Shown one piece after another: positions 1,954 to 16,555 of a stretch of DNA of 64,000 nucleotides. Position 1 is the stretch's first letter, and each line of letters starts with the position of its first letter. The stretch is from assembly GCA_016781505.1 (NCBI GenBank), contig JADDQF010000102.1:1-64000 (forward strand), read 5' to 3'. The stretch comes from a bacterium (GTDB lineage: Bacteria; Chloroflexota; Chloroflexia; Chloroflexales; Kallotenuaceae). The notes beneath the pieces are model-generated. The model had not been told where the DNA came from, did no database searches, and was given only the letters and a program-made list of their open reading frames with translations. Position numbers and translations under genes: made by a program.

Positions 1954-4900
1954 TCAGGTTATCGGTTGCTGATCGTCGCGCAAGCCGGCCGACAAAGCGT
2001 GCCACTCTTGCAACGAGCGTACGGTCCACGCGCCGGATTTGAGCGCCTTGATCGCCTCGATTGCCGCCTCGGCGCCGCTCAACGTGGTGATCGACACCAC
2101 GCCGTACTGTACGCCGGCCCGCCGCATGGCTAGCTCGTCATAAAAGCTGGCCTGACCAAGTGGCGTGTTGACGATCAGATTGATCTCGCCGTTCTTGATC
2201 AGGTCCACGACATTCGGCCGGCCCTCGTTGACCTTGAACACGATGTCGGCGTGGACGCCATGTTGGGCGAGGTAGTCCGCGGTGCCGCCTGTGGCCACAA
2301 GCCGGAAGCCCAGCGCGGCAAACTCACGCGCGATCGGCACAACGTTGGGCTTGTCGGCATCGTTAACGCTCACAAAGACCGCACCACCCCGCGGCAGGTC
2401 GCGGTTGCAGCCAAGCTGGGCCTTGGCGAACGCCTCGCCAAAGGTTTCGCCGGAGCCCATGCCCTCGCCGGTTGAGCGCATCTCTGGGCCGAGCGACGTA
2501 TCGACGCCGGGAAACTTCGACCACGGCAGCACAACTTCTTTGACATGAAAGCCCGCAATTACCGGTTCCTCGGTAAAGCCCAGCTGCCGTAGCTTGCGGC
2601 CGGTCATCACTTGCGCGGCCACCTTGGCCCAGGGCACGCCCGACGCTTTGGAAACGAACGGGACGGTGCGGGAAGCGCGCGGATTGACCTCCAGCACATA
2701 CACGACATCGTCTTTCATCGCGTACTGCACGTTCATCAGGCCGACGACGTTAAGGGCCTTGGCTAGGGCAACGGTGTAGCGTCGCATGGTTTGGAGGTGC
2801 TCGGCGGGGACCATGGACGGGGGAAGCACGGCCGCCGAATCACCGGAGTGAATGCCGGCGAGCTCGATCTGGTGCATAATGCCCGCGATCACTACATCCT
2901 CGCTATCGGCGACTGCGTCGACATCAAACTCCCAGGCGTCTTCCAAAAACTTGTCGATCAGCACGGGGTGATCGGGCGAGATGTCGGCGGCTTCGCGCAT
3001 GTATTTGCGCAGCTCGTCTTCGGTGTACACAATCGCCATGCCGCGGCCACCCAACACATATGATGGCCGGACCACAACCGGGAAGCCGATGCGCTGGACG
3101 ACTTGAACAGCGGTTTCGAAGGAGGTTGCGGTGCCGTTCGCCGGCTGCGGAATATTATGTTCACGCAGCAGTGCCCCGAAGCGCTCCCGATCCTCGGCCA
3201 GATCGATGGCTTCCGGCGTCGTCCCCAGAATTGGTACACCCGCCGCTTCAATCGACCGCGCCAGCTTGAGCGGCGTTTGGCCACCGAACTGCACGATCAC
3301 GGCTATGTTTGGGCTTGGCCGCGCTGGATCAAGGGCAAGACCTTGGCCCTCTTCGTCGACAATATTGAGCACATCTTCCAGTGTGAGCGGCTCGAAGTAG
3401 AGCCGGTCGGAGGTGTCGTAGTCGGTGGAGACGGTTTCGGGGTTGCAGTTGACCATGATCGTTTCATAGCCCAGCTCTCGCAGGGCGAAAACGGCGTGGC
3501 AACAGCAGTAGTCGAACTCCAGGCCTTGGCCGATACGGTTCGGGCCGCTGCCGAGGATGATAACCTTTGGCCGATCAGTGGGATCGGATTCGCTCTCGGT
3601 TTCATACGATGAGTACAGGTAGGGCGTGAGCGCGGGAAACTCGGCGGCGCAGGTGTCGACCCGGTGGTAGGTCGGCACGATCGCCTGTGTCTTGCGCTTA
3701 GCGCGTACAGCTTCCGGCTTGGCATGTAACAGCATGGCCAGCTGCTGATCGCTGAAGCCGGTGCGCTTGGCCTCCCGCAGCAAGCGCGGCGGCACAGTGT
3801 CGAGCGTAAACGCGCGTAGACGGCCTTCCAGATGCAGGATATGCGCGAACTGGGCCACAAACCACGGATCATAGCCAGTGAGCCGGGCTACCTGCCGCTC
3901 ATCCATGCCACTCTGTAGCGCATAGCGCACATAGAACGGTCGCTCAGGACGGGGCGTGATCAGATATTCCCGGAGCCGCTCGCCGTCGATCCCCTCTTTG
4001 CCGTCGGCGCCCCACCCACCGCGGCCGATCTCAAGACTGCGCAGGGCCTTTTGCCAGGCCTCGGCAAAGGTCCGACCAATCGCCATCGCTTCGCCGACCG
4101 ATTTCATCTGTGTGCCGAGATTTGGCTGCGCGCCTGGAAACTTTTCAAAGGCAAAGCGCGGAATCTTAACCACGACATAGTCGAGGGTCGGCTCGAATGA
4201 GGCCGGCGTTTCGCGGGTAATGTCGTTGGGCAGCTCGTCCAACGTGTAGCCCACCGCCAGCTTGGCCGCGATTTTGGCGATCGGAAAGCCCGTAGCCTTG
4301 GAGGCGAGCGCCGACGACCGCGACACCCGTGGGTTCATCTCGATCACGATTACGCGACCATCGCGCGGATTGACGGCGAACTGGACATTGGAGCCGCCGG
4401 TCTCGACGCCAACGGCACCCATTACGGTAACGGCCATGTCGCGCAGCCGCTGATATTCACGATCAGTTAGGGTTTGGGCCGGCGCTACCGTAATGCTGTC
4501 GCCGGTATGCACGCCCATCGCATCCAGATTTTCAATCGAGCAGATAATCACGACGTTGTCGGCGCGATCGCGCATCACCTCAAGCTCGAATTCCTTCCAC
4601 CCGATCACGCTCTCCTCGACCAACACCTGATTCGTAGGCGAAAGATCTAGGCCGTTTTCAACTATCGAGCGAAACTCCTCGATGTTGTAGGCAATGCCAC
4701 CGCCCGTGCCGCCCAGCGTAAAGGACGGCCGGATAATCGCGGGAAAGCCGGTCTCCTTGACGATCTGGAGGGCTTCGTCGAGGGTAATTGCCACACCGCT
4801 GCGGGCAACGGGCAGCCCAACGCGTGCCATCGCCTGCTTGAAGAGCTCGCGATCTTCGGCGATCTCGACCGCTTGCACGGATGCCCCGATCAGCGGACAG

Positions 4901-5235
4901 CCATACTCGTCCAGCACGCCCGCGTTGTGCAAGGCAACCGCGAGATTCAGCGCCGTTTGACCGCCAACCGTCGGCAACACAGCGTCGGGCCGCTCCTTGG
5001 CGATGATCCGGCTGACGCTTTCAACGGTCAACGGCTCGATATAGGTCGCATCGGCAAACTCGGGGTCCGTCATGATGGTGGCGGGATTCGAGTTGACCAG
5101 CACGACGCGAAAGCCTTCTTCTCGCAGCGCCTTGCAGGCCTGCACGCCCGAGTAATCGAACTCACTGGCCTGTCCGATCACAATCGGTCCGGCACCCAGG
5201 ATCAGAATCGTATGAATATCAGTTCGTTTAGGCAT
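1954..5235 (-). CDS. carB: Carbamoyl-phosphate synthase large subunit
   Basis: 1093 aa; [41 protein letters not shown], duplicated ATP-grasp halves and a C-terminal MGS-like domain. Confidence 0.98.
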
Positions 5236-5281
5236 CTATGCTCCGGTTCGTTTGATCTATCAAAATAGCTCATCCATCTTG

Positions 5282-5959
5282 TTAAATATTTGGAATCTGC
5301 CAGTCGATTGGCGTTTTGCCCGCCGCCTCAAGGGCTGCGTTGATCTGGGAAAATGGTCGGCTGCCAAAAAAACCATTCTTAGCTGAAAGAGGCGACGGAT
5401 GAGCCGACTTTACCACGGTATGGCGGCTGGTATCAATAAAGCCGAGCTTTTTGTGCGCGTACGCTCCCCACAGCACAAACACGACCGGACTATCCTTGGC
5501 GTTGACCGCCCGAATAACAGCATCAGTAAATGTCTCCCAGCCTTTGCCCTTGTGCGAAGCTGGTTGATGGGCCCGCACCGTGAGCACTGCGTTCAGCAGC
5601 AGAACGCCTTGTTCCGCCCAGGGCACGAGATAGCCGTTGTTGGGCGCGCGGCAGCCGATGTCGCTGTTAAGCTCGCGGTAGATATTTGCCAGGGATGGCG
5701 GCGGCTTAATGCCGGGTCGGACCGAGAAGGCCAGCCCATGCGCTTGGTTATCGTCGTGATACGGGTCTTGGCCCAAGATCAGCACGTTAACCTGCTCGTA
5801 GGGTGTCAGCTTCAGCGCATTAAAGACGTCGGGCTCTGGCGGAAACACCGTATGCTCCCGCCGCTCGACATCGACAAATTGCTGCAGCTTTTCAAAGTAT
5901 GGCTGCTTAAGCTCGTCGGCGAGCACGTTGTGCCAGGAGGCGGGAAGGTCAATGTTCAT
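5282..5959 (-). CDS. ung: Uracil-DNA glycosylase
   Basis: VNVLILGQDPYHDDNQAHGLAFSV and HPSPLSAKNGFFGSRPFSQIN are family-1 UDG motifs. Start set at MNIDLP. Confidence 0.96.
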   Translation of the reverse strand: MNIDLPASWHNVLADELKQPYFEKLQQFVDVERREHTVFPPEPDVFNALKLTPYEQVNVLILGQDPYHDDNQAHGLAFSVRPGIKPPPSLANIYRELNSDIGCRAPNNGYLVPWAEQGVLLLNAVLTVRAHQPASHKGKGWETFTDAVIRAVNAKDSPVVFVLWGAYAHKKLGFIDTSRHTVVKSAHPSPLSAKNGFFGSRPFSQINAALEAAGKTPIDWQIPNI

Positions 5960-6040
5960 AGATTCGCCTGCTTGTCCTCTCTGCATTGATCGGCTGCGCC
6001 GCGCACGTATGCGAGACGACGTATTGCCAGATGTCACTGC

Positions 6041-6850
6041 TCATTCACATGTAGCTAAAAAGAGGCCGACATCTTTGGTGATACGCAGTGGTCCCTGGGC
6101 GGCGATTTCAGCCTCCACAGCCCGGACCAAACGGGCCCGCTCCTCGGCTCCAAATGCTCGGGTGTCCGCCGTCGACAGAATAAAAGCCACAATCGGCTCG
6201 GCTTCGGGAACGATCAACCCGTCCGGGTAACGCCGCAGCTCAACTCCTTCAAACCAGCGGGCGATCTCGGCTCCGCCATTTTCAAGCAAAAACGTGCCGG
6301 TGCTCGGTCCACCCCAAGCTGCTGTCCCTAGATCATGCCGTTCCACGAGCGCATGGATCTCGCGCAGATGTGCCTCCCCGTTCGTAGCCGCAAAAAACCG
6401 TCCGCCGGGATGCAGCACCCGTTTGATTGCGGCATACGCTCGCTCGCGACTGGGCACATGGTACAGCATATGGTTGGCGATCACGGCGTCAAAGTGGGCG
6501 GCGGCAAAGGGCAAGTTTTGCACGTCCGCTACCTCGAAGGCAAACGGATGTCCGACGGCTTGAAGATTGCGCCGGGCTTCGTCCAACATGCCGGGCGAAA
6601 AATCAGCCAGGGTGATCTGCCAACCGGCGGGAATGTGCTCGGCGTTTTCCTGCCACAGGTAGCCCGGCCCGCAGCCGATTTCAAGAATGGCGCACTGAGC
6701 CGGGAGGTCGAGCTGTTCAAAGACCCAGCGCAGCCAGCCCTGCTGGTTGGTGCTGAAGCGTTTATGCAGCTCGACCCGCGCATTAAATTTCGTAGCGTCT
6801 TGGTACTGGTCGGCGCGCAGATACCCTTGATCGGCGATTCGAGACACCAC
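6041..6850 (-). CDS. Class I SAM-dependent methyltransferase
   Basis: ILEIGCGPGYLW motif I and a Methyltransf_11-like core. Confidence 0.85.
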   Translation of the reverse strand: MVSRIADQGYLRADQYQDATKFNARVELHKRFSTNQQGWLRWVFEQLDLPAQCAILEIGCGPGYLWQENAEHIPAGWQITLADFSPGMLDEARRNLQAVGHPFAFEVADVQNLPFAAAHFDAVIANHMLYHVPSRERAYAAIKRVLHPGGRFFAATNGEAHLREIHALVERHDLGTAAWGGPSTGTFLLENGGAEIARWFEGVELRRYPDGLIVPEAEPIVAFILSTADTRAFGAEERARLVRAVEAEIAAQGPLRITKDVGLFLATCE

Positions 6851-6870
6851 TGCTTCCTCCAGACGCCAGC

Positions 6871-7986
6871 TTAGCGTTCCCGCTCCTGTTCCATCAGCCG
6901 TACAAACTCGGTAAAGAGTTGATCGGCGTCATGCGGCCCTGGCGCGGCCTCCGGGTGGTATTGCACCGAAAAGGCCGGATAGCGCGTGTGACGCAGTCCT
7001 TCCACCGTGCCGTCGTTCAGGTTGCGATGGGTGACCTCGATGTCGTCGGGCAGCGACTCGGCCGCGACCGAAAAGCCATGATTTTGTGACGTGATTTGGA
7101 CGTGGCCACTGCTCAGATCCTTGACCGGATGATTACAGCCGTGGTGGCCATACGGCAGCTTAAAGGTCGAGCCGCCCACTGCCAAGCCCATCAACTGGTG
7201 ACCGAGGCAAATACCAAACATCGGCGTGCGGCCCAGCAGCGTCTCGATATGCTTGACGGCATAGTCCAGTGTCGCCGGATCACCAGGCCCGTTCGACAAA
7301 AACACGCCATCCGGCTTGAGGGCCAAAACATCTTCCGCCGTGGTGGTAACGGGCACCACGGTAACATGGGCGCCGTGGTCTACCAGCTTGCGGAGAATGT
7401 TCCGTTTGAGCCCAAAATCGTAGGCGACGACATGCAACCGGGGCGGAGGCGACGCAATCCCAGCCCACTCGCCGCTGCCTTGGCTCCAGGTATAGGGCTG
7501 GCGCGTGCCCACGCCGCTGGCAAGGTCTAGCCCTTCCATCGGCGACGCCGTCCGAGCCAAGTTCAGCAAATACTCGGTGTCGTCCGTCTCAGTGGAGATG
7601 GCGGCCCGCAGCGCGCCTTTTTCGCGAATATGGCGAGTCAGGGCGCGCGTGTCGATATCGGCCAGCGCGACGATCTCGTGCTCGCGTAGGTAGTGCGCTA
7701 ACGCGGTTCTGGCGCGCCACGACGAGTAGTCATCGGTGTAGGAGCGTACCAAAAAGCCCGCAACATAGGGCCGTTCAGCCTCCGGATCGATCTCGTTCAC
7801 TCCGGTATTGCCGATATGCGCGGCGGTCATCGTTACGATCTGGCCGGCATACGAGGGATCGGTTAATACTTCCTGGTAGCCGGTCATGCCGGTCGCAAAA
7901 ACTACCTCACCGGTCGTCTCGCCCTGCGCGCCAAAGGAGCGTCCTTCAAAGACGCGGCCATCTTCCAATACCAACAATGCTTCCAT
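6871..7986 (-). CDS. carA: Carbamoyl-phosphate synthase small subunit
   Basis: [20 protein letters not shown]...; GATase motifs [11 protein letters not shown] and [10 protein letters not shown]. Confidence 0.97.
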
Positions 7987-8054: not shown

Positions 8055-9248
8055 TCAACTTAACACTTCCAACGCATGGTGCAAGATACCGATCATCTCG
8101 TCCACATGCTCACGCTCAACAATCAGCGGCGGCACAAAGCGGATCACGTCGTCGCCCGCCGGTACCAGCAGGAGGCCCGCCTCTTGAGCTGCGTTTTTAA
8201 CCGCGGCCGCACTGCCACGAACCTGCATGCCCTGCATCAAGCCACGCCCCCGGATGTCAACTACGTTTGAGTCGTGTGCCTGGATTTCACCCAGCCGGGT
8301 CCGCAGATAATCGCCAACCTCGCGCACATGCGCCAGCATGGCCGGGTCGCTCAGCCGGCGAAAGACCGCCGCCGCTACCGCGCAGACCAGTGGCCCGCCC
8401 GCAAAGGTCGAGCCGTGGTCGCCGGGCTGAATATGCGCCGCGACGGCGTCAGTTACCAGGATGGCCCCAATCGGGAGGCCATTGCCGAGTGGCTTGGCCG
8501 CGACCATGATGTCCGGCATTGTGTCGGTTGCTTGGTGCGCCCACACTGTACCCGTCCGTCCACCGCCCGACTGAATCTCGTCAAAGATCAGCAGCGCGCC
8601 GTGCTGGTCGCAGAGCTGCCGTAGGCCAGCCAGAAACTCATCCGTCGCAGGTGTGACACCGCCCTCGCCCTGGATCGGCTCCACGATCACCGCGCACACG
8701 GTGTCGTCCATGATTTGTCGGGTTGTTGTGAGGTCGTTGAAGGGAGCAAAGCGTACACCGGGCATCAATGGCTCGAAGGGCTCGCGGTACTGCGCTTTAT
8801 GGGTCGTCGCCAGCGCGCCCATGGTGCGACCATGAAAGCTGTGCTCAAAGGCAACAATGCCGGTCTTTCCTGGACCATGCGTTTGCCGTGCCACTTTACG
8901 GGCAAATTTCAGTGCTCCTTCAACCGCCTCCGTGCCGGAGTTGCTGAAGAAGACCTTGTCGGCAAAGCAGGACTCGACCAGCAGCTTGGCTAGCTCGACG
9001 GCCGGCTCGGTCCAATACAGGCTTGAAACGTGGGTGAGCTTGGCGGCCTGCTCTTGAATCACGGTCAAAGACGTTGGATCGGCGTGGCCCAGCGCGTTCA
9101 CGGCTATGCCGGCCACGAAATCAAGGTAGCGCCGGCCCTCGGTGTCCCAAACCTCCATGCCCTTGCCGTGGGCTAACACAAACGCCGCACGATTATACGC
9201 TTTAACAAAATAGCGCTCCGCGTCAGCGATTACCTGCGATGTGCTCAT
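8055..9248 (-). CDS. argD: Acetylornithine aminotransferase (class III)
   Basis: FSNSGTEAVEGALKFAR, LIFDEIQSGGGRTG, position in arg cluster. Confidence 0.94.
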   Translation of the reverse strand: MSTSQVIADAERYFVKAYNRAAFVLAHGKGMEVWDTEGRRYLDFVAGIAVNALGHADPTSLTVIQEQAAKLTHVSSLYWTEPAVELAKLLVESCFADKVFFSNSGTEAVEGALKFARKVARQTHGPGKTGIVAFEHSFHGRTMGALATTHKAQYREPFEPLMPGVRFAPFNDLTTTRQIMDDTVCAVIVEPIQGEGGVTPATDEFLAGLRQLCDQHGALLIFDEIQSGGGRTGTVWAHQATDTMPDIMVAAKPLGNGLPIGAILVTDAVAAHIQPGDHGSTFAGGPLVCAVAAAVFRRLSDPAMLAHVREVGDYLRTRLGEIQAHDSNVVDIRGRGLMQGMQVRGSAAAVKNAAQEAGLLLVPAGDDVIRFVPPLIVEREHVDEMIGILHHALEVLS

Positions 9249-9251
9249 CGG

Positions 9252-10007
9252 TTATGCTCCCTCCGCGATCTGCGTTCCCGTCCCGCTGCGCAGCCCTTCA
9301 AGGTTGGTGATGCGCACAGCCTGAACGCCGGCTAGCGCTCCGATAGCCGAACGCACTTTAGGCACCATCCCGCCGCCAATGGCTTCGGTTGCGATATGCT
9401 GCTCGATCTGTCCCGGCGTTAGCCGTGGCACAACGGCGCCGTCGATCATGACGCCCGGCACGTTTGACACAAAGATCAGCTCGTCGGCCTGTAGCGCGGT
9501 TGCAATCGCCAGCGCGGCATGGTCGGCGTTAACGTTGGTGGGACCTTGATCCTCCTGGTCGACCGAAACCGGAGACACTACGGGCAGCCACCCCTGAGCA
9601 AGCAGCAGACGTAAAACCTCGGCCCGGACCGCCACCACCTCGCCGACGCGCCCTAGATCACGGCCTTCGGGCCGCATCGGGGTTGTTTGCAGCAAATGCA
9701 GATCAACACCGCTAAGGCCGATAGCGAGCACGTCGGCCGCGTTCAGCTGTGCCACGAGTCGCTTGTTGACCGCACCGCTCAGCACTTGCTCGACCACCGC
9801 CATAGCTGCAGGGCTGGTTGCGCGCATACCATCCACAATCTCGAAGTCGAGCCCGTGGCGCTGCAAGCCCATTGCGATCTCTTTGCCCCCGCCATGCACG
9901 ATCACGCCGCGCTGACCAGCAGCGTTTAGTGTTCGCACGGCTGTGGCGAGGCCGGCCAAGAATTCTGGCTGATCGATTTCGTTGCCGCCGATTTTTAGTA
10001 CGTACAT
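9252..10007 (-). CDS. argB: Acetylglutamate kinase
   Basis: MYVLKIGGNEID...VIVHGGGKEI...NVNADHAALAIA, amino acid kinase fold. Confidence 0.92.
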   Translation of the reverse strand: MYVLKIGGNEIDQPEFLAGLATAVRTLNAAGQRGVIVHGGGKEIAMGLQRHGLDFEIVDGMRATSPAAMAVVEQVLSGAVNKRLVAQLNAADVLAIGLSGVDLHLLQTTPMRPEGRDLGRVGEVVAVRAEVLRLLLAQGWLPVVSPVSVDQEDQGPTNVNADHAALAIATALQADELIFVSNVPGVMIDGAVVPRLTPGQIEQHIATEAIGGGMVPKVRSAIGALAGVQAVRITNLEGLRSGTGTQIAEGA

Positions 10008-10065
10008 AACTTAACCAGCAAGTAGCAGCGTGCGCCGACCAACATTGGTCCTTGCATGCTTATTG

Positions 10066-11076
10066 TTATTGCAGCCCGGTCGTTTCCGGTAACCCAAACA
10101 TAATGTTCATGTTCTGGATCGCCTGGCCCGAGGCTCCCTTGACCAAATTATCCTCACTCGCCATGATCACCCAGTTGCCGCGGTCATCCACCTGCTGCAG
10201 CCCAAGGACACACAGATTGCTGTGCACGCTATGCGCAAGCGTCGGAAGCTGGCCAGCCGCCAGCAACCGCACAAACGGCTCCTGGGCATAGCGCTCGGTG
10301 TAGATTTTACGCACAGCATCCGGTGCTAAGTCACGCGGCAGGCGCACATAGCAGCTTGACAGAATGCCGCGGCTGACGGGCAGCAGATGCGGCGCGAAGA
10401 TCACATGCAGCGGTGCACCGGCAGCTCGGCCCAGCTCCTGCTCCATCTCGGCGATATGCCGATGGGAATGGCCGACGTTGTAGGGCGCGAAGTTTTCGTT
10501 CGCCTCAACATAATGCGTCTTGAGCGACAAGGAACGGCCCGCGCCGCTCACGCCGGATTTGGCGTCCACAATCACCTGGCCATCCAGTAATCCCGCCTCG
10601 GCCAAGGGTAAGAGCGCAAGCAGAACGCTGGTCGGATAACAGCCGGGATTAGCTACCAGTCGCGCCTTTGCGATCTGCTCGCGATACAGCTCGGGCAGCC
10701 CGTAGACCGCTTCGGCAAGCAGCTCGGGCGCGCCGTGCGGATGCTTGAACCACGTCGCGTAGTGCTCCACATCGCGCAGCCGGAAGTCGTTGCTGAGATC
10801 GACCACGCGTGCGCCCGTCGCCAGCACTTCCTGCGCAGTCCGAATCGTTGTTTCGCCGTGCGGCAGACACAAAAACGCAACATCGCAGCTGGCCGGATCA
10901 GCCGCGCTGGCATCGACCAGCGGCAAATCGTCAGCAACCGCAAACGCATCGCTTAGGCGTTGCCCCGCATAGGTGCGGGACGTGGCAAAAACTATTTCAG
11001 CTTGTGGATGGCGGCGCAGCCACCGGATCAGCTCAACCCCAGTATAGCCGGTTGCGCCATAAATCCCAATTCGCAT
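10066..11076 (-). CDS. argC: N-acetyl-gamma-glutamyl-phosphate reductase
   Basis: MRIGIYGATGYTGVELIRWL...VANPGCYPTSVLLAL. Confidence 0.97.
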   Translation of the reverse strand: MRIGIYGATGYTGVELIRWLRRHPQAEIVFATSRTYAGQRLSDAFAVADDLPLVDASAADPASCDVAFLCLPHGETTIRTAQEVLATGARVVDLSNDFRLRDVEHYATWFKHPHGAPELLAEAVYGLPELYREQIAKARLVANPGCYPTSVLLALLPLAEAGLLDGQVIVDAKSGVSGAGRSLSLKTHYVEANENFAPYNVGHSHRHIAEMEQELGRAAGAPLHVIFAPHLLPVSRGILSSCYVRLPRDLAPDAVRKIYTERYAQEPFVRLLAAGQLPTLAHSVHSNLCVLGLQQVDDRGNWVIMASEDNLVKGASGQAIQNMNIMFGLPETTGLQ

Positions 11077-11119: not shown

Positions 11120-11656
11120 TTAACCGCCTGCTTCTTTATATGCCGGCACAGGTTCGTTCAATCGTAAGATCATCGCCACTTCATCGCAGCAGTCTTGTTT
11201 GGGGCAGAACTGACAGTCCTGCCATACTTTCTGCGACAACGTTGGTTTTTCCACGATGTCAAAGCCCAGCTTGGCGAAGAATTGCACCTGATAGGTCAGC
11301 GCAAAGACCGTCGGAATGCCCAGAGCCTTGGCATCCGCAATCAACGGCTCGCACAGCCGCCGGCCCAGACCCCGCCCCTGCCAGGCCGACGCAACCGCCA
11401 GCGACACAATTTCGGCCAGGTCGCGCCAGGTGATCTTAAGGCCGGCGCAGCCCACTATGCCCCTGTCGCTCTCGGCCACAATAAAATCACGCAGGTTGTT
11501 GTACAGCTGCGCGTGCGTTTTGGGCAGCATCAGCCCCTGTGCCGCGTAGCCGTTGATCAGCTCGGCCATCTGATCCACATCCGTGACGTACGCACGCCTG
11601 ATCCGGGGCTGGTCGCCGTTGGCCGGCGGCGGCATATGTAGTGCAATGTGTGGCAT
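11120..11656 (-). CDS. argA: Short GNAT-type N-acetylglutamate synthase
   Basis: GNAT core (SAWQGRGLGRRLCEPLI) plus C-terminal CQFCPKQDCCDEVAM cluster typical of short ArgA; lies between argC and argH. Confidence 0.8.
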   Translation of the reverse strand: MPHIALHMPPPANGDQPRIRRAYVTDVDQMAELINGYAAQGLMLPKTHAQLYNNLRDFIVAESDRGIVGCAGLKITWRDLAEIVSLAVASAWQGRGLGRRLCEPLIADAKALGIPTVFALTYQVQFFAKLGFDIVEKPTLSQKVWQDCQFCPKQDCCDEVAMILRLNEPVPAYKEAGG

Positions 11657-11660
11657 ACGG

Positions 11661-13028
11661 CTATCGCGTGCAGGCGCGCGCGGCGGCCAGCTGCGCGGCT
11701 AGCACTTCCCCCGCCGTCCCGCCGCTGACATTGCGCTGCTCAACCGAACGACGCATATCGAAGAGCTGCTGCCAGTGATCGGCTAGGCCGGCATGGGCGT
11801 TACGGACGGTTTCAAGCGGCAGTTCGCGGAGGGCAATCCGCTGCTGCTCGGCTGCTCGCACCAGCTGGCCGACAATGCCGTGTGATTCCCGGAACGGCAC
11901 CTGCATACGCACCAGCTCGTCGGCGATATCCGTCGCCAGCAGGGTATCATCCAGCGCCGCCTGCATCCGCTCGGTATTGATCCGCAGCGTGCCCACCACC
12001 CCCGCGACGACCGGCAACGTCAACAAGAGCGTGTCGACGGTGTCGAACAGGCCTTCTTTGTCTTCCTGCAAATCCTTGTTATAGGTTGAGGGCAGCCCTT
12101 TCAGCACCGTCAGCAGTCCCGTCAGATTCCCGATCAGTCGCCCGGCTTTGCCACGCGCCAGCTCCAGCGAGTCCGGATTTTTCTTTTGCGGCATCAATGA
12201 CGAGCCGGTTGAGTAGGCATCGTCGAGCGTCACAAAGCCGAACTCGGCCGTGCTGTAGATGATCAAGTCTTCGGCCAGCCGCGACACATGCGTGCCGATC
12301 AGCGCGCCGACAAAGAGCAGCTCGGCCACAAAATCGCGGTCGCCCACGGCATCCATGCTGTTGGGCGTGACACCATCAAAGCCCAGTACCTGGGCTAGCG
12401 TATCGCGGTCGACGCCCAGCGCATTGCCCGCAAGTGCGCCGGCACCGAGCGGCATAAGGTTGAGCCGTTGCCGACAATCTTCGAGACGAGCACGGTCGCG
12501 GTGCAGCGGCCAAAAGTGCGACAACAGCCAATGGCCTACCGGCACCGGCTGCGCACGCTGTAGATGGGTGTAGCCCGGCATCAGCGCAGCTTGATGCTGT
12601 TCGGCCTGGGCAATCAGTGCACGCTGCGTTTCACATAACGCCTCGTCCAGCCGCTTGATCATGGTGCGGGCATAGATGCGCAGATCGGTCGCGACCTGAT
12701 CGTTGCGCGAGCGGCCGGTATGCAACTTCCCGGCTACCGAACCGACGATCTGGTGCAGCCGGTGTTCAACCGCCGTATGAATATCCTCGTCGGCCAGCCG
12801 CAGCTCAAAGGTGCCGTTGGTGAACTCTTCGAGCACCTGGCCTAAGCCGCGCTGCAGCTCGTCCCGCTCATCGGTGGTAAGCAGACCGGCAGCGGCGAGC
12901 GCCTCGGCATAGGCGGCCGATCCCTCGATGTCGGCCTCGTACAGCCGCCAATCAAAGGTGATCGAAGCGTTGAACTGCTCCATCACGTCGCTCATCTGGC
13001 CTTCAAAGCGCCCGCCCCATAGTTTCAT
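11661..13028 (-). CDS. argH: Argininosuccinate lyase
   Basis: MKLWGGRFEGQMSDVMEQFNASI...GSSLMPQKKNPDSLEL. Confidence 0.98.
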   Translation of the reverse strand: MKLWGGRFEGQMSDVMEQFNASITFDWRLYEADIEGSAAYAEALAAAGLLTTDERDELQRGLGQVLEEFTNGTFELRLADEDIHTAVEHRLHQIVGSVAGKLHTGRSRNDQVATDLRIYARTMIKRLDEALCETQRALIAQAEQHQAALMPGYTHLQRAQPVPVGHWLLSHFWPLHRDRARLEDCRQRLNLMPLGAGALAGNALGVDRDTLAQVLGFDGVTPNSMDAVGDRDFVAELLFVGALIGTHVSRLAEDLIIYSTAEFGFVTLDDAYSTGSSLMPQKKNPDSLELARGKAGRLIGNLTGLLTVLKGLPSTYNKDLQEDKEGLFDTVDTLLLTLPVVAGVVGTLRINTERMQAALDDTLLATDIADELVRMQVPFRESHGIVGQLVRAAEQQRIALRELPLETVRNAHAGLADHWQQLFDMRRSVEQRNVSGGTAGEVLAAQLAAARACTR

Positions 13029-13087: not shown

Positions 13088-14326
13088 TCAGGTCCTGTAG
13101 TCGGCATTGATCGACACGTATTCGTGCGAGAAGTCACACGTCCATACGGTGGCGGCCTCGTCGCCCAGCCCTAGATCAACTGCGACGAAAACATCCGAGC
13201 CGGTCAGGCTGGCATGCGCATCGGCTTCGTTGTATGCAAGCGGCGCGCCAGCGGCCACCAGCTGCACATCGCCAAACCACAGCGCTAACCGCTGGGGATC
13301 GACCTCCACTCCGCTGCGTCCGACCGCCGCCAGCACCCTGCCCCAGTTCGCATCCGTGCCAAAAATCGCGGTCTTGACCAAGCTGGAGGTGGCGATCGTA
13401 CGGCCAACCTGGCGGGCTTCGGCAAACGAGCGCCCGCCTGTTACCGCGACAGTTACGAACTTGGTCGCGCCTTCGCCATCACGCGCCACCAGCTTGGCTA
13501 GCTCGCTGCACACGGCGGTGAGTCCGGCCTGAAATGCTTCAAACGCCGCGGAGTCGGCTGTTATTTGCGATGTTTTGGCTGCGCCATTGGCCAAGACCAG
13601 CAGCGTATCGTTGGTGCTGGTATCGCCGTCGACGGTCATACAGTTGAACGACCGGTCGACGGCATAGCGGAGCGCGGCGTCGAGCGCTGTTTGGTCGATC
13701 ACGGCGTCGGTGCAGACCAGTGCCAGCAGTGTGGCCATGTTGGGATGGATCATGCCCGCGCCTTTGCAGATGCCCGCAATCGTGACCGGCCCATCGTCGA
13801 GCATCAGCTGCACGGCGACCTCCTTCGGCCGGGTGTCGGTGGTCATGATCGCTTGCGCTGCGGCATGACCGGCGTCTGGCTCGTTGCTGAGCTGCGTGGC
13901 AGCCATTCTGATCCCCGGCAGCACCTGCCGCATCGGAAGCTGCGCACCGATCACACCCGTCGACATCACCAACACGCTGTCACATGGGAGATCAAGCGCT
14001 TCGATCACGGCCTGCGCCGTAGTCTCGGTGTTGCGCAGCCCCTGCTCGCCCGTGACGGCGTTGGCACAGCCACTGTTGATCACCGCAGCCTGAATGCCCG
14101 CGGCATTGCGGCCAAGCAGTGCGCGATCAAACTGGACCGGCGCGGCTTGAACCGCATTCGTGGTGAAGACCGCTGCAGCCACACAGGGGCTGTCGGCGAC
14201 GATCAAGGCCAGATCTAGGCCACCCCGTTTTTTGATCCCGGCTGCAATACCGGCGGCCCGAAAGCCGGGCACGCTGGTCAACGGTTCGCCCAGCACAGGT
14301 GTGATGGATGTTGAGGATTTGTTCAT
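13088..14326 (-). CDS. argJ: Bifunctional glutamate N-acetyltransferase/ornithine acetyltransferase
   Basis: GMIHPNMATLLALVCTDA contains the autocleavage motif region. Start at MNKSS gives a 4-nt overlap with the upstream gene. Confidence 0.96.
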   Translation of the reverse strand: MNKSSTSITPVLGEPLTSVPGFRAAGIAAGIKKRGGLDLALIVADSPCVAAAVFTTNAVQAAPVQFDRALLGRNAAGIQAAVINSGCANAVTGEQGLRNTETTAQAVIEALDLPCDSVLVMSTGVIGAQLPMRQVLPGIRMAATQLSNEPDAGHAAAQAIMTTDTRPKEVAVQLMLDDGPVTIAGICKGAGMIHPNMATLLALVCTDAVIDQTALDAALRYAVDRSFNCMTVDGDTSTNDTLLVLANGAAKTSQITADSAAFEAFQAGLTAVCSELAKLVARDGEGATKFVTVAVTGGRSFAEARQVGRTIATSSLVKTAIFGTDANWGRVLAAVGRSGVEVDPQRLALWFGDVQLVAAGAPLAYNEADAHASLTGSDVFVAVDLGLGDEAATVWTCDFSHEYVSINADYRT

Positions 14327-14970
14327 GGCTGCTCCACAGGCGGCATATCCGCAAGATGGGCAATATCGTTGTAGCGCAGCAGGAACCACCGGTTGACGTT
14401 GAACCGGTCACTTTTGCGCCACTCCGTCAGCGACGTGTTGTGTGTCCAAAAGCCGGTGGAAGTACGTGGTCCTAGATCCAGGAACAGGTAAAATGAGGCT
14501 TCCACGATACCACCGTGCGCCGCAACAATCACCGTTTGGTTGGGATGCTCGCGCACAATCCGATCAAGCGCAGTGCTGGCCCGCACCACAAAGGCCGCCC
14601 AGCTTTCCATGCTGGGAATGCGCTCGGTATACGGCTGGTCATGTTGGAACGAGCCGTAGCGCGCTTCAAGCTCGCGCCAGGAAAAGCCCTCCGCCTCCGC
14701 GCCCGGCCGTTTCTCGTGCAGCTCGTCGTCCCATTGAATGGGCAGACCCAGTGCCTCCGCGATTGGCTCGGCCGTTTGTCGTGCCCTCGCAATCGGGCTG
14801 GCATACAGCACATCGGCTTTGAGCTCGTCCTGCCTTAAGCGTTGGGCAAGACGGGCAACCTGAGCATGGCCCCGCTCGGTTAGCCCTGCGCAGGTCTCAA
14901 GGCCATGCGCCAGACCGGATACATTACACACCGCCTCGCCATGGCGGACGATGATGAGTTTCGTGGCCAC
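14323..14970 (-). CDS. Histidine phosphatase family protein
   Basis: KLIIVRHGEAVCNVSG...RARQTAEPIAE: RHG motif. Confidence 0.9.
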   Translation of the reverse strand: MATKLIIVRHGEAVCNVSGLAHGLETCAGLTERGHAQVARLAQRLRQDELKADVLYASPIARARQTAEPIAEALGLPIQWDDELHEKRPGAEAEGFSWRELEARYGSFQHDQPYTERIPSMESWAAFVVRASTALDRIVREHPNQTVIVAAHGGIVEASFYLFLDLGPRTSTGFWTHNTSLTEWRKSDRFNVNRWFLLRYNDIAHLADMPPVEQP

Positions 14971-15045: not shown

Positions 15046-16305
15046 TTAGTCGCGCTTGAAGGTGTTGAAATCGGGCTGTCGATAACGGCTTGTGCCTGTT
15101 TCAGAGCTGACCAGCGCCTCGACCTTGAGTGGCAAGCCGTACAGGTGGATAAATCCTTCGGCGTCGCGCTGGTCGTACACATCTTCCTGGCCAAATGTGG
15201 CAAAATCTTCGCGATACAGCGAGACCGGGGAGCGACGTCCCACCACAATCGCCTGGCCCTTGAAGAGCTTGAGCCGCACGTCGCCGGTTACGTTCTGCTG
15301 CGTAGACTGGACAAAGCGGTCTAGGTGTTGGCGCAGCGGTGTAAACCAGCGCCCGTTGTACACCAGATCGGCATACTCCAGCGCAACCCGATCCTTGTAG
15401 TGCAGGGTTTCGCGGTCAAGTGTCAGGAGCTCCAGCTCACGATGGGCAGTTTGCAAGATCGTCCCGCCCGGCGTTTCGTACACGCCGTGGGATTTCATGC
15501 CAACCAGGCGGTTTTCAACCAGGTCAATGCGGCCGATACCATGCTTGCCGCCGTAGCCGTTGAGCATGCACAGCAGATCGACCAGGCCAAGGCGCTCGCC
15601 GTTGAGCGCCACAGGAGCGCCCTGTTCGAAGCTGAGGACAACATATTCCGGCTGATCCGGCGCAGCTTCGGGCGCGACCGACAGCGTGAACATATCCTCT
15701 TCGGGCTCGTTCCACGGATCTTCAAGCACGCCGCCTTCATGGGAAATATGCCAAATGTTGCGGTCGCGGCTGTAGATTTTCTTCTCGGTCTGGGCGATCG
15801 GAATGTTGTGCTCACGGGCATAGCGAATGGCGTCCTCGCGGGAGCGAATGTCCCACTCTCGCCACGGAGCGATCACCTTGAGCTTGGGATTGAGCGCCAT
15901 GTAGGTCAGCTCGAACCGAACCTGGTCGTTGCCTTTACCGGTACAGCCATGGGCAACCGCATCCGCGCCCTCCTGCTCGGCAATCTCGACCTGGCGTTTT
16001 GCAATCAGTGGCCGCGCCATCGACGTGCCGAGCAGGTATTTGCGCTCGTACACCGCACCGGCCTGAACCGTGGGCAGGATATAATCACGGATAAATTCTT
16101 CGCGCAAGTCCTCGATGATTACCTTGGAAGCGCCGCTCTTGAGGCCTTTTTCTTCAAGACCGCCGAGCTCTTCTTCCTGTCCCAAGTCGGTGCAATAACA
16201 GATGACCTCGCAGCCGTAGTTTTCACGCAGCCAGGGCACGATGACCGACGTATCCAATCCGCCAGAGTAGGCCAGCACGACCTTCTGGATGCCTTTGTTT
16301 ACCAT
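15046..16305 (-). CDS. argG: Argininosuccinate synthase
   Basis: [45 protein letters not shown] upstream of ATG. Confidence 0.98.
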
Positions 16306-16393: not shown

Positions 16394-16427
16394 AAAAAGC
16401 AGCCCCGCCGTCTGGCAGAGCTGCTTT
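16394..16427 (-). terminator. Rho-independent terminator (candidate attenuator) in the argG leader
   Basis: RNA AAAGCAGC-UCUGCCAGACGGCGGG-GCUGCUUUUU; 8-bp outer stem followed by a U-run, located before argG ATG. Confidence 0.75.
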
Positions 16428-16450
16428 GCACGATTCCAACGCAAGCACCA

Positions 16451-16516
16451 CTAACCAGACGTTTGGTCCGGCTGCGTACGACGCAAGCGACGTGGTGTGG
16501 CGTGTGGTCTGTTCAT
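16451..16516 (-). CDS. Arginine-rich leader peptide MNRPHATPRRLRRTQPDQTSG (candidate attenuation leader of argG operon)
   Basis: 22-codon ORF between a consensus promoter and a terminator; codons CGT CGC TTG CGT CGT at positions 9-13. Confidence 0.75.
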   Translation of the reverse strand: MNRPHATPRRLRRTQPDQTSG

Positions 16517-16526
16517 CTAGCGCGCG

Positions 16527-16555
16527 AGTATAGCACGGAGCGTCAGGGGTGTCAA
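16527..16555 (-). promoter_or_regulatory. Sigma70-type promoter for argG leader
   Basis: TTGACA-17 bp-TATACT (minus strand), -10 element 10 nt before leader ATG. Confidence 0.85.

Follow-up and report, generated by a model that had tools for sequence, protein, structure and literature searches.

Descriptions of arginine biosynthesis in bacteria usually attribute its control to the ArgR repressor or to T-boxes. The window analyzed here, a stretch of 64,000 nucleotides from a member of the Kallotenuaceae (Chloroflexota, order Chloroflexales), raises the question of how an arginine operon is controlled when a short open reading frame (ORF) with clustered arginine codons and an intrinsic terminator are located between a promoter and the first structural gene. 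All features described below are on the minus strand. The first structural gene is argG (argininosuccinate synthase, 15046..16305), which is preceded by a GGGAG Shine-Dalgarno sequence at 16316-16312. It is followed by a gene of the histidine phosphatase superfamily (phosphoglycerate-mutase-like, PGM-like, 14323..14970), argJ (13088..14389), argH (11661..13028), a GNAT acetyltransferase gene (11120..11656) that, judging by its position, possibly encodes N-acetylglutamate synthase, argC (11076-10066), argB (10007-9252) and argD (9248-8055), the last three spanning 8055..11076. The end of the operon (1954..7986) consists of carA (7986-6871), methyltransferase and uracil-DNA glycosylase genes (5282-6850), and carB (5235-1954). 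The genes from argC to carB were named by reading their translations. Nearly the entire arginine pathway appears to lie downstream of a single attenuator. The linkage of the PGM-like gene (14323-14970) to argJ and argH is also seen in Chloroflexus-type genomes.

The leader ORF (16451..16516) extends over 21 codons from ATG to TAG and encodes MNRPHATPRRLRRTQPDQTSG*, in which 5 of the 21 residues are Arg. Its control Arg codons read CGTCGC-TTG-CGTCGT; there is, then, a match between the clustered codon and the product of the operon that the ORF precedes. The terminator, AAAGCAGC..GCTGCTTTTT (16394..16427), located between the leader ORF and argG, consists of 14 pairs followed by a T run (the U run of the RNA). 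The earlier note had placed the ORF with this peptide at 16516-16451 and the terminator at 16427-16394, and all of its coordinates are correct on the minus strand. The leader RNA of the window folds better than shuffled sequences (z = -2.33). Upstream of the ORF, a promoter (16527..16555) was found that consists of TTGACA at 16555-16550, a 17-nt spacer and TATACT at 16532-16527, with 11 of 12 matches and an extended TG; one match of such quality was found where 0.4 were expected. The distance from the -10 hexamer to the leader ATG is 10 nt in the window, so short that the leader mRNA is likely to have almost no 5′ untranslated region. A similar -10 box is located 8-10 nt 5′ of the leader ATG in three relatives of the same family (L003, L004 and L005), two of which (L003 and L004) also have a similar -35 box. 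The start of the leader ORF is farther from the promoter in other genera than in the window.

The arrangement is not confined to the window. The layout ORF–hairpin–terminator was found 5′ of argG in all family relatives in which argG was found (L003, L004 and L005), with the leaders MHRQTYNLHSTPRRRRTKPDTTSG, MNTQHAHMTMLRFRRRTQPDDPSG and MKCVLRAPRRLCTEPNRSFG*. Among 37 related elements from the Chloroflexales, the Arg cluster (3-9 Arg residues), the hairpin between segments 1 and 2, the antiterminator between segments 2 and 3, and the terminator between segments 3 and 4 were all kept, and every one of the 37 arg-operon leaders has at least 3 Arg residues. The element is conserved over 17 genera, and a covariance model, R1, built from 22 leaders, has matches in 56 of the 82 genomes of the order, counts that are not independent because the genomes compared are related. 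A trivial explanation would be that the terminator serves the preceding gene, which is on the same strand and whose end is about 130 nt upstream of the ORF, and that GC-rich sequence, in which CGN codons are common, gave rise to the Arg-rich ORF by chance. Such a coincidence can practically be dismissed: a promoter is located between the upstream gene and the ORF, the element recurs over the genera and genomes mentioned above, and CGT represents 62% of the Arg codons in the Arg leaders versus 15% in the operon genes of the window.

Known regulators of arginine genes were also sought. Control of the operon by ArgR was rejected, as the Pfam ArgR N domain was detected in none of the 82 genomes of the order and the ArgR C domain in none of the 158 genomes of the class, while the control genomes were positive in both searches. 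The identification of the leader as a T-box was rejected as well; no T-box, riboswitch or any other Rfam leader family reached the gathering threshold in the window, and the T-box bulge consensus was not seen when the leader was read.

The comparative alignment supports three competing helices. Segment 1 (AGCCGGAC, 16466..16473) is the protector strand, and segment 2 (CGUCUGGUU, 16453..16461), which overlaps the last leader codons, can be the partner of either segment 1 or segment 3. The conserved 1:2 hairpin is formed by AGCCGGAC (16473-16466) with GUCUGGUU (16460-16453); this helix is kept across 40 sequences, with 82% of the cells paired and 53% at most when the register is slid. The earlier note had assigned the protector role to CACCAC (16497-16492) and GTGGTG (16451-16446). 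This pairing is present in the window, but it is absent in the aligned relatives and was rejected as the protector in favor of the conserved hairpin. The antiterminator proposed in the same note, CGTCTGG (16461-16455) with CCAGACG (segment 3, 16409..16415, inside the terminator hairpin), is present and conserved, and its sequence varies on both sides, being CGUUUGGG:CCCAAAG in L005 and GGUCCGG:CCGGACU in L087. Its core was right, but the helix is longer than had been described and includes a conserved GCUUG(C) (16441..16446) that pairs with the AAGC foot of the 5′ arm of the terminator to form the upper helix of the antiterminator. The 2:3 antiterminator has 86% of its cells paired and, as the conservative measure, a covariation score above those of all shuffles; its 16 double-change cells, reached by 0 of 1000 shuffles, were counted after the window-type rows and L005 had been re-gapped by hand, a step that is biased toward the structure. 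The 3:4 terminator has 85% of its cells paired and 33 double-change cells, a number reached by 0 of 500 shuffles. The antiterminator and the terminator are mutually exclusive and both are supported by covariation. The check suggested in the earlier note, covariation in orthologous leaders, came out in favor of its proposal, with the Arg-rich ORF and the competing pairings kept while the sequence drifts.

A structured and well conserved RNA core of this kind would also be expected if an unknown riboswitch or an antiterminator protein bound the leader and controlled the terminator, the ORF being incidental. The coding properties of the leaders make this very improbable. The last 20 codons of the Arg leaders contain a mean of 5.4 Arg and 0.2 Lys, with a minimum of 3 Arg (n = 37), and the enrichment is restricted to the leader frame, as the other frames have 1.5 and 2.1 Arg. 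At the first, second and third positions of the Arg codons, the entropy is 0.04, 0.00 and 0.72 bits, respectively, that is, the codons change synonymously while the residue is retained. The Arg codon nearest to segment 1 is located 7-11 codons before the stop codon in 35 of 35 aligned leaders. A binding leader leaves unexplained the frame, the identity of the Arg residues in spite of silent drift at the third base, the position of the stop codon and the exchange of Arg for Lys described below; moreover, the window has no Rfam family at the gathering threshold. Four leaders have their nearest Arg codon 11 codons from the stop codon, and in L005 a direct reading places the Arg pair at 12-13 codons. 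By simple counting, a ribosome stalled at such distant codons would therefore mask segment 1 poorly.

A homologous element with Lys codons (KQxKRxKKPD..SG*) was found before the alpha-aminoadipate lysine operon of the same genomes, including that of the window. The R1 model also matched Roseiflexaceae elements, with leaders such as MQSPITKQVKRSKKPDVWSG*, before the genes for homoaconitase, LysX, homocitrate synthase and related genes. A second model, R2, consisting of the core of the element minus most control codons, found two elements in most Chloroflexaceae, one of Arg type and one of Lys type, the latter before homocitrate synthase. The genome of the window (G000) has its Lys-type leader, MSITSYQLNSKKSVSKKGRTIASG*, before homocitrate synthase on contig C60. 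The last 20 codons contain 3.7 Lys and 1.6 Arg in the Lys leaders (n = 53) and 5.4 Arg and 0.2 Lys in the Arg leaders (n = 37), with Mann-Whitney P values of about 1e-15 for Arg and 1e-17 for Lys, which are overstated since related sequences were counted. Judging by their sequences, the two leader types are a natural control-codon swap experiment, in which the same RNA core serves arginine in one case and lysine in the other, in agreement with the operon that follows. The Lys-type elements L274, L279, L288 and L290, from the genus of the window, differ from the other Lys leaders in that their frame is shifted by one base with respect to the RNA core, but they retain the KK codons.

The two leader types bear on another explanation, in which the signal is not the charging of tRNA but the basic nascent peptide (poly-Arg or poly-Lys) itself, which would pause in the ribosomal tunnel or respond, like the fungal arginine attenuator peptide, to free arginine. 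In the fungal case, high arginine represses, and a specific conserved peptide is required. In the Chloroflexales leaders, peptide positions other than the control residues drift in sequence, and base-paired RNA encodes those C-terminal residues that are conserved. This explanation gains some weight from the basic character of the two leader types and from the Staphylococcus aureus rbfL leader, which pauses at Arg codons in vitro (PMC13009471). A general effect of charge, however, would not account for the presence of Arg leaders before arg operons and of Lys leaders before lys operons, and we consider sensing of the nascent chain unlikely.

The reading that we favor with high confidence, based on the comparison of these sequences, is a ribosome-mediated transcription attenuator that would sense charged tRNA-Arg and control the arginine operon of bacteria in which no ArgR was detected. 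The mechanism of the earlier note is supported by the comparative evidence, with the protector pairing and the length of the antiterminator corrected. The case is strengthened because no ArgR was detected in the clade and a homologous version with Lys codons precedes lysine genes. From this evidence we infer ribosome stalling, antitermination and a response to arginine. Transcription would start just 5′ of the leader ATG. When arginine is plentiful, the ribosome would read CGT CGC TTG CGT CGT through to UAG and cover segment 2 (CGUCUGG), the 3:4 terminator would form, and transcription would end before argG. When charged Arg-tRNA is scarce, the ribosome would stall on the Arg codons and cover segment 1 (AGCCGGAC), and the freed segment 2 would pair with segment 3 (CCAGACG, extended by GCUUG:AAGC); no terminator would form and the operon would be transcribed. 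If the leader is not translated, the 1:2 hairpin would form first and favor the terminator.

Constrained folding was in agreement with this pathway. With a ribosome at the last Arg codon and the RNA extending through segment 3, the antiterminator was formed in 44 of 45 elements; all 45 formed the terminator when the ribosome was placed at the stop codon. With a ribosome stalled on the complete leader RNA of the window, the terminator remains the preferred structure at equilibrium (-31.9 kcal/mol). When the RNA ends with segment 3, the antiterminator is preferred even without a ribosome. The switch must therefore be kinetic and be decided during transcription, and the basal level of termination predicted from such folds is uncertain.

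The genes found downstream of the element differ among the genomes of the order. Most Chloroflexaceae with a window-type argG also carry it upstream of argG. In Chloroflexus-type genomes and a sister genus, it precedes a PGM-argJ-argH operon instead, often with an additional gene between argJ and argH, and the only argG homologue found in these genomes is remote (30% identical) and located elsewhere. Some Chloroflexaceae (L092, L094, L105 and L139) have a tRNA-Ala-like sequence and a terminator-like hairpin directly 5′ of argG, replacing the leader. At one locus, L186 (G015:C607), a single contig carries a pair of Arg-type elements separated by about 1.8 kb, with an ORF between them, a possible local duplication. 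The element was not seen in the upstream sequences of argG that were read in Roseiflexaceae and Herpetosiphon-type genomes; those Roseiflexaceae matches whose sequences were read belong to the lysine type, and the Herpetosiphon-type genomes (g23) had no model match. Weak model matches in G055, G022:C344 and G034:C379 could not be recognized as the element. A pattern scan of Anaerolineae argG loci found no matching element; at one such locus, L009, a short ORF that contains Arg is accompanied by a terminator-like hairpin.

The element core was also found before a gene for a LysE-type translocator at six loci of the Chloroflexota, mostly outside the order (L283, L286 and L287 in f14 genomes, L295 and L296 in f49, and L284). 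Their leaders are Gln/Arg-rich, for example, QRQRQQTGRSG* or QRGQQQPDRRSG. Another R2 match (L294 in G327, E = 2e-8) has a Pro-rich leader, MPMRLPSPPEPEKPDRRSG, and is located upstream of a metallophosphoesterase-like ORF. We lean slightly toward the view that one ancestral core was duplicated within the Chloroflexota and retuned by codon swap, with Arg codons before arg operons, Lys codons before alpha-aminoadipate lysine operons and Gln/Arg-rich leaders before LysE-type exporters elsewhere in the phylum, and that the supply of basic amino acids in these ArgR-less bacteria is mainly under its control. The element can be regarded as a modular sensor in which a small number of codons may determine the specificity, and a conserved attenuator of arg operons fills a gap in arginine control in a lineage without detectable ArgR.

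Several known systems share part of this design. The fungal arginine attenuator peptide of the CPA1/arg-2 upstream ORF also combines a short upstream ORF, an arginine gene and ribosome stalling, but it is a eukaryotic system in which a conserved peptide causes stalling when arginine is high, and translation is repressed. Arginine T-box riboswitches, named as RNA control of arginine genes in a study of Actinobacteria (PMC1262725), likewise sense the charging of tRNA-Arg and control arg genes by antitermination, but the tRNA binds the RNA directly and there is no leader ORF. Salmonella speF is preceded by orf34, a short upstream ORF where ribosome pausing at consecutive Arg codons under low arginine alters the downstream RNA structure (PMC6386406). 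Arg-codon pausing would be common to both systems, but speF is a polyamine gene and its control goes through RNase G, Rho and access to the ribosome-binding site rather than through an intrinsic terminator before arg genes. The S. aureus rbfL leader peptide senses arginine limitation through Arg codons (PMC13009471); in contrast to the element described here, it uses AGA/AGG codons and represses translation initiation of a biofilm regulator, with no transcription attenuation. A survey of attenuation from 2010 (PMC2965389) described leader peptide systems as known until then only in Proteobacteria and Actinobacteria and added Firmicutes, and in the open-licence literature we found no biosynthetic operon for arginine or lysine that had been described as controlled by a ribosome-mediated attenuator. 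The closest likeness is to the classical attenuators (trp, his, leu, thr, phe and ilv), which have a leader ORF rich in codons for the product, 1:2 and 2:3 helices and a 3:4 intrinsic terminator before a biosynthetic operon, and which the window element also resembles in that the decision would be taken during transcription. The logic of the trp attenuator as modeled in PMC1183508 is that proposed here. The element of the Chloroflexales differs from them in the amino acid, arginine, or lysine in the paralogous element, in its occurrence in Chloroflexota, in the homologous RNA core that the arg and lys leaders share, and in the near-leaderless mRNA predicted for the window.
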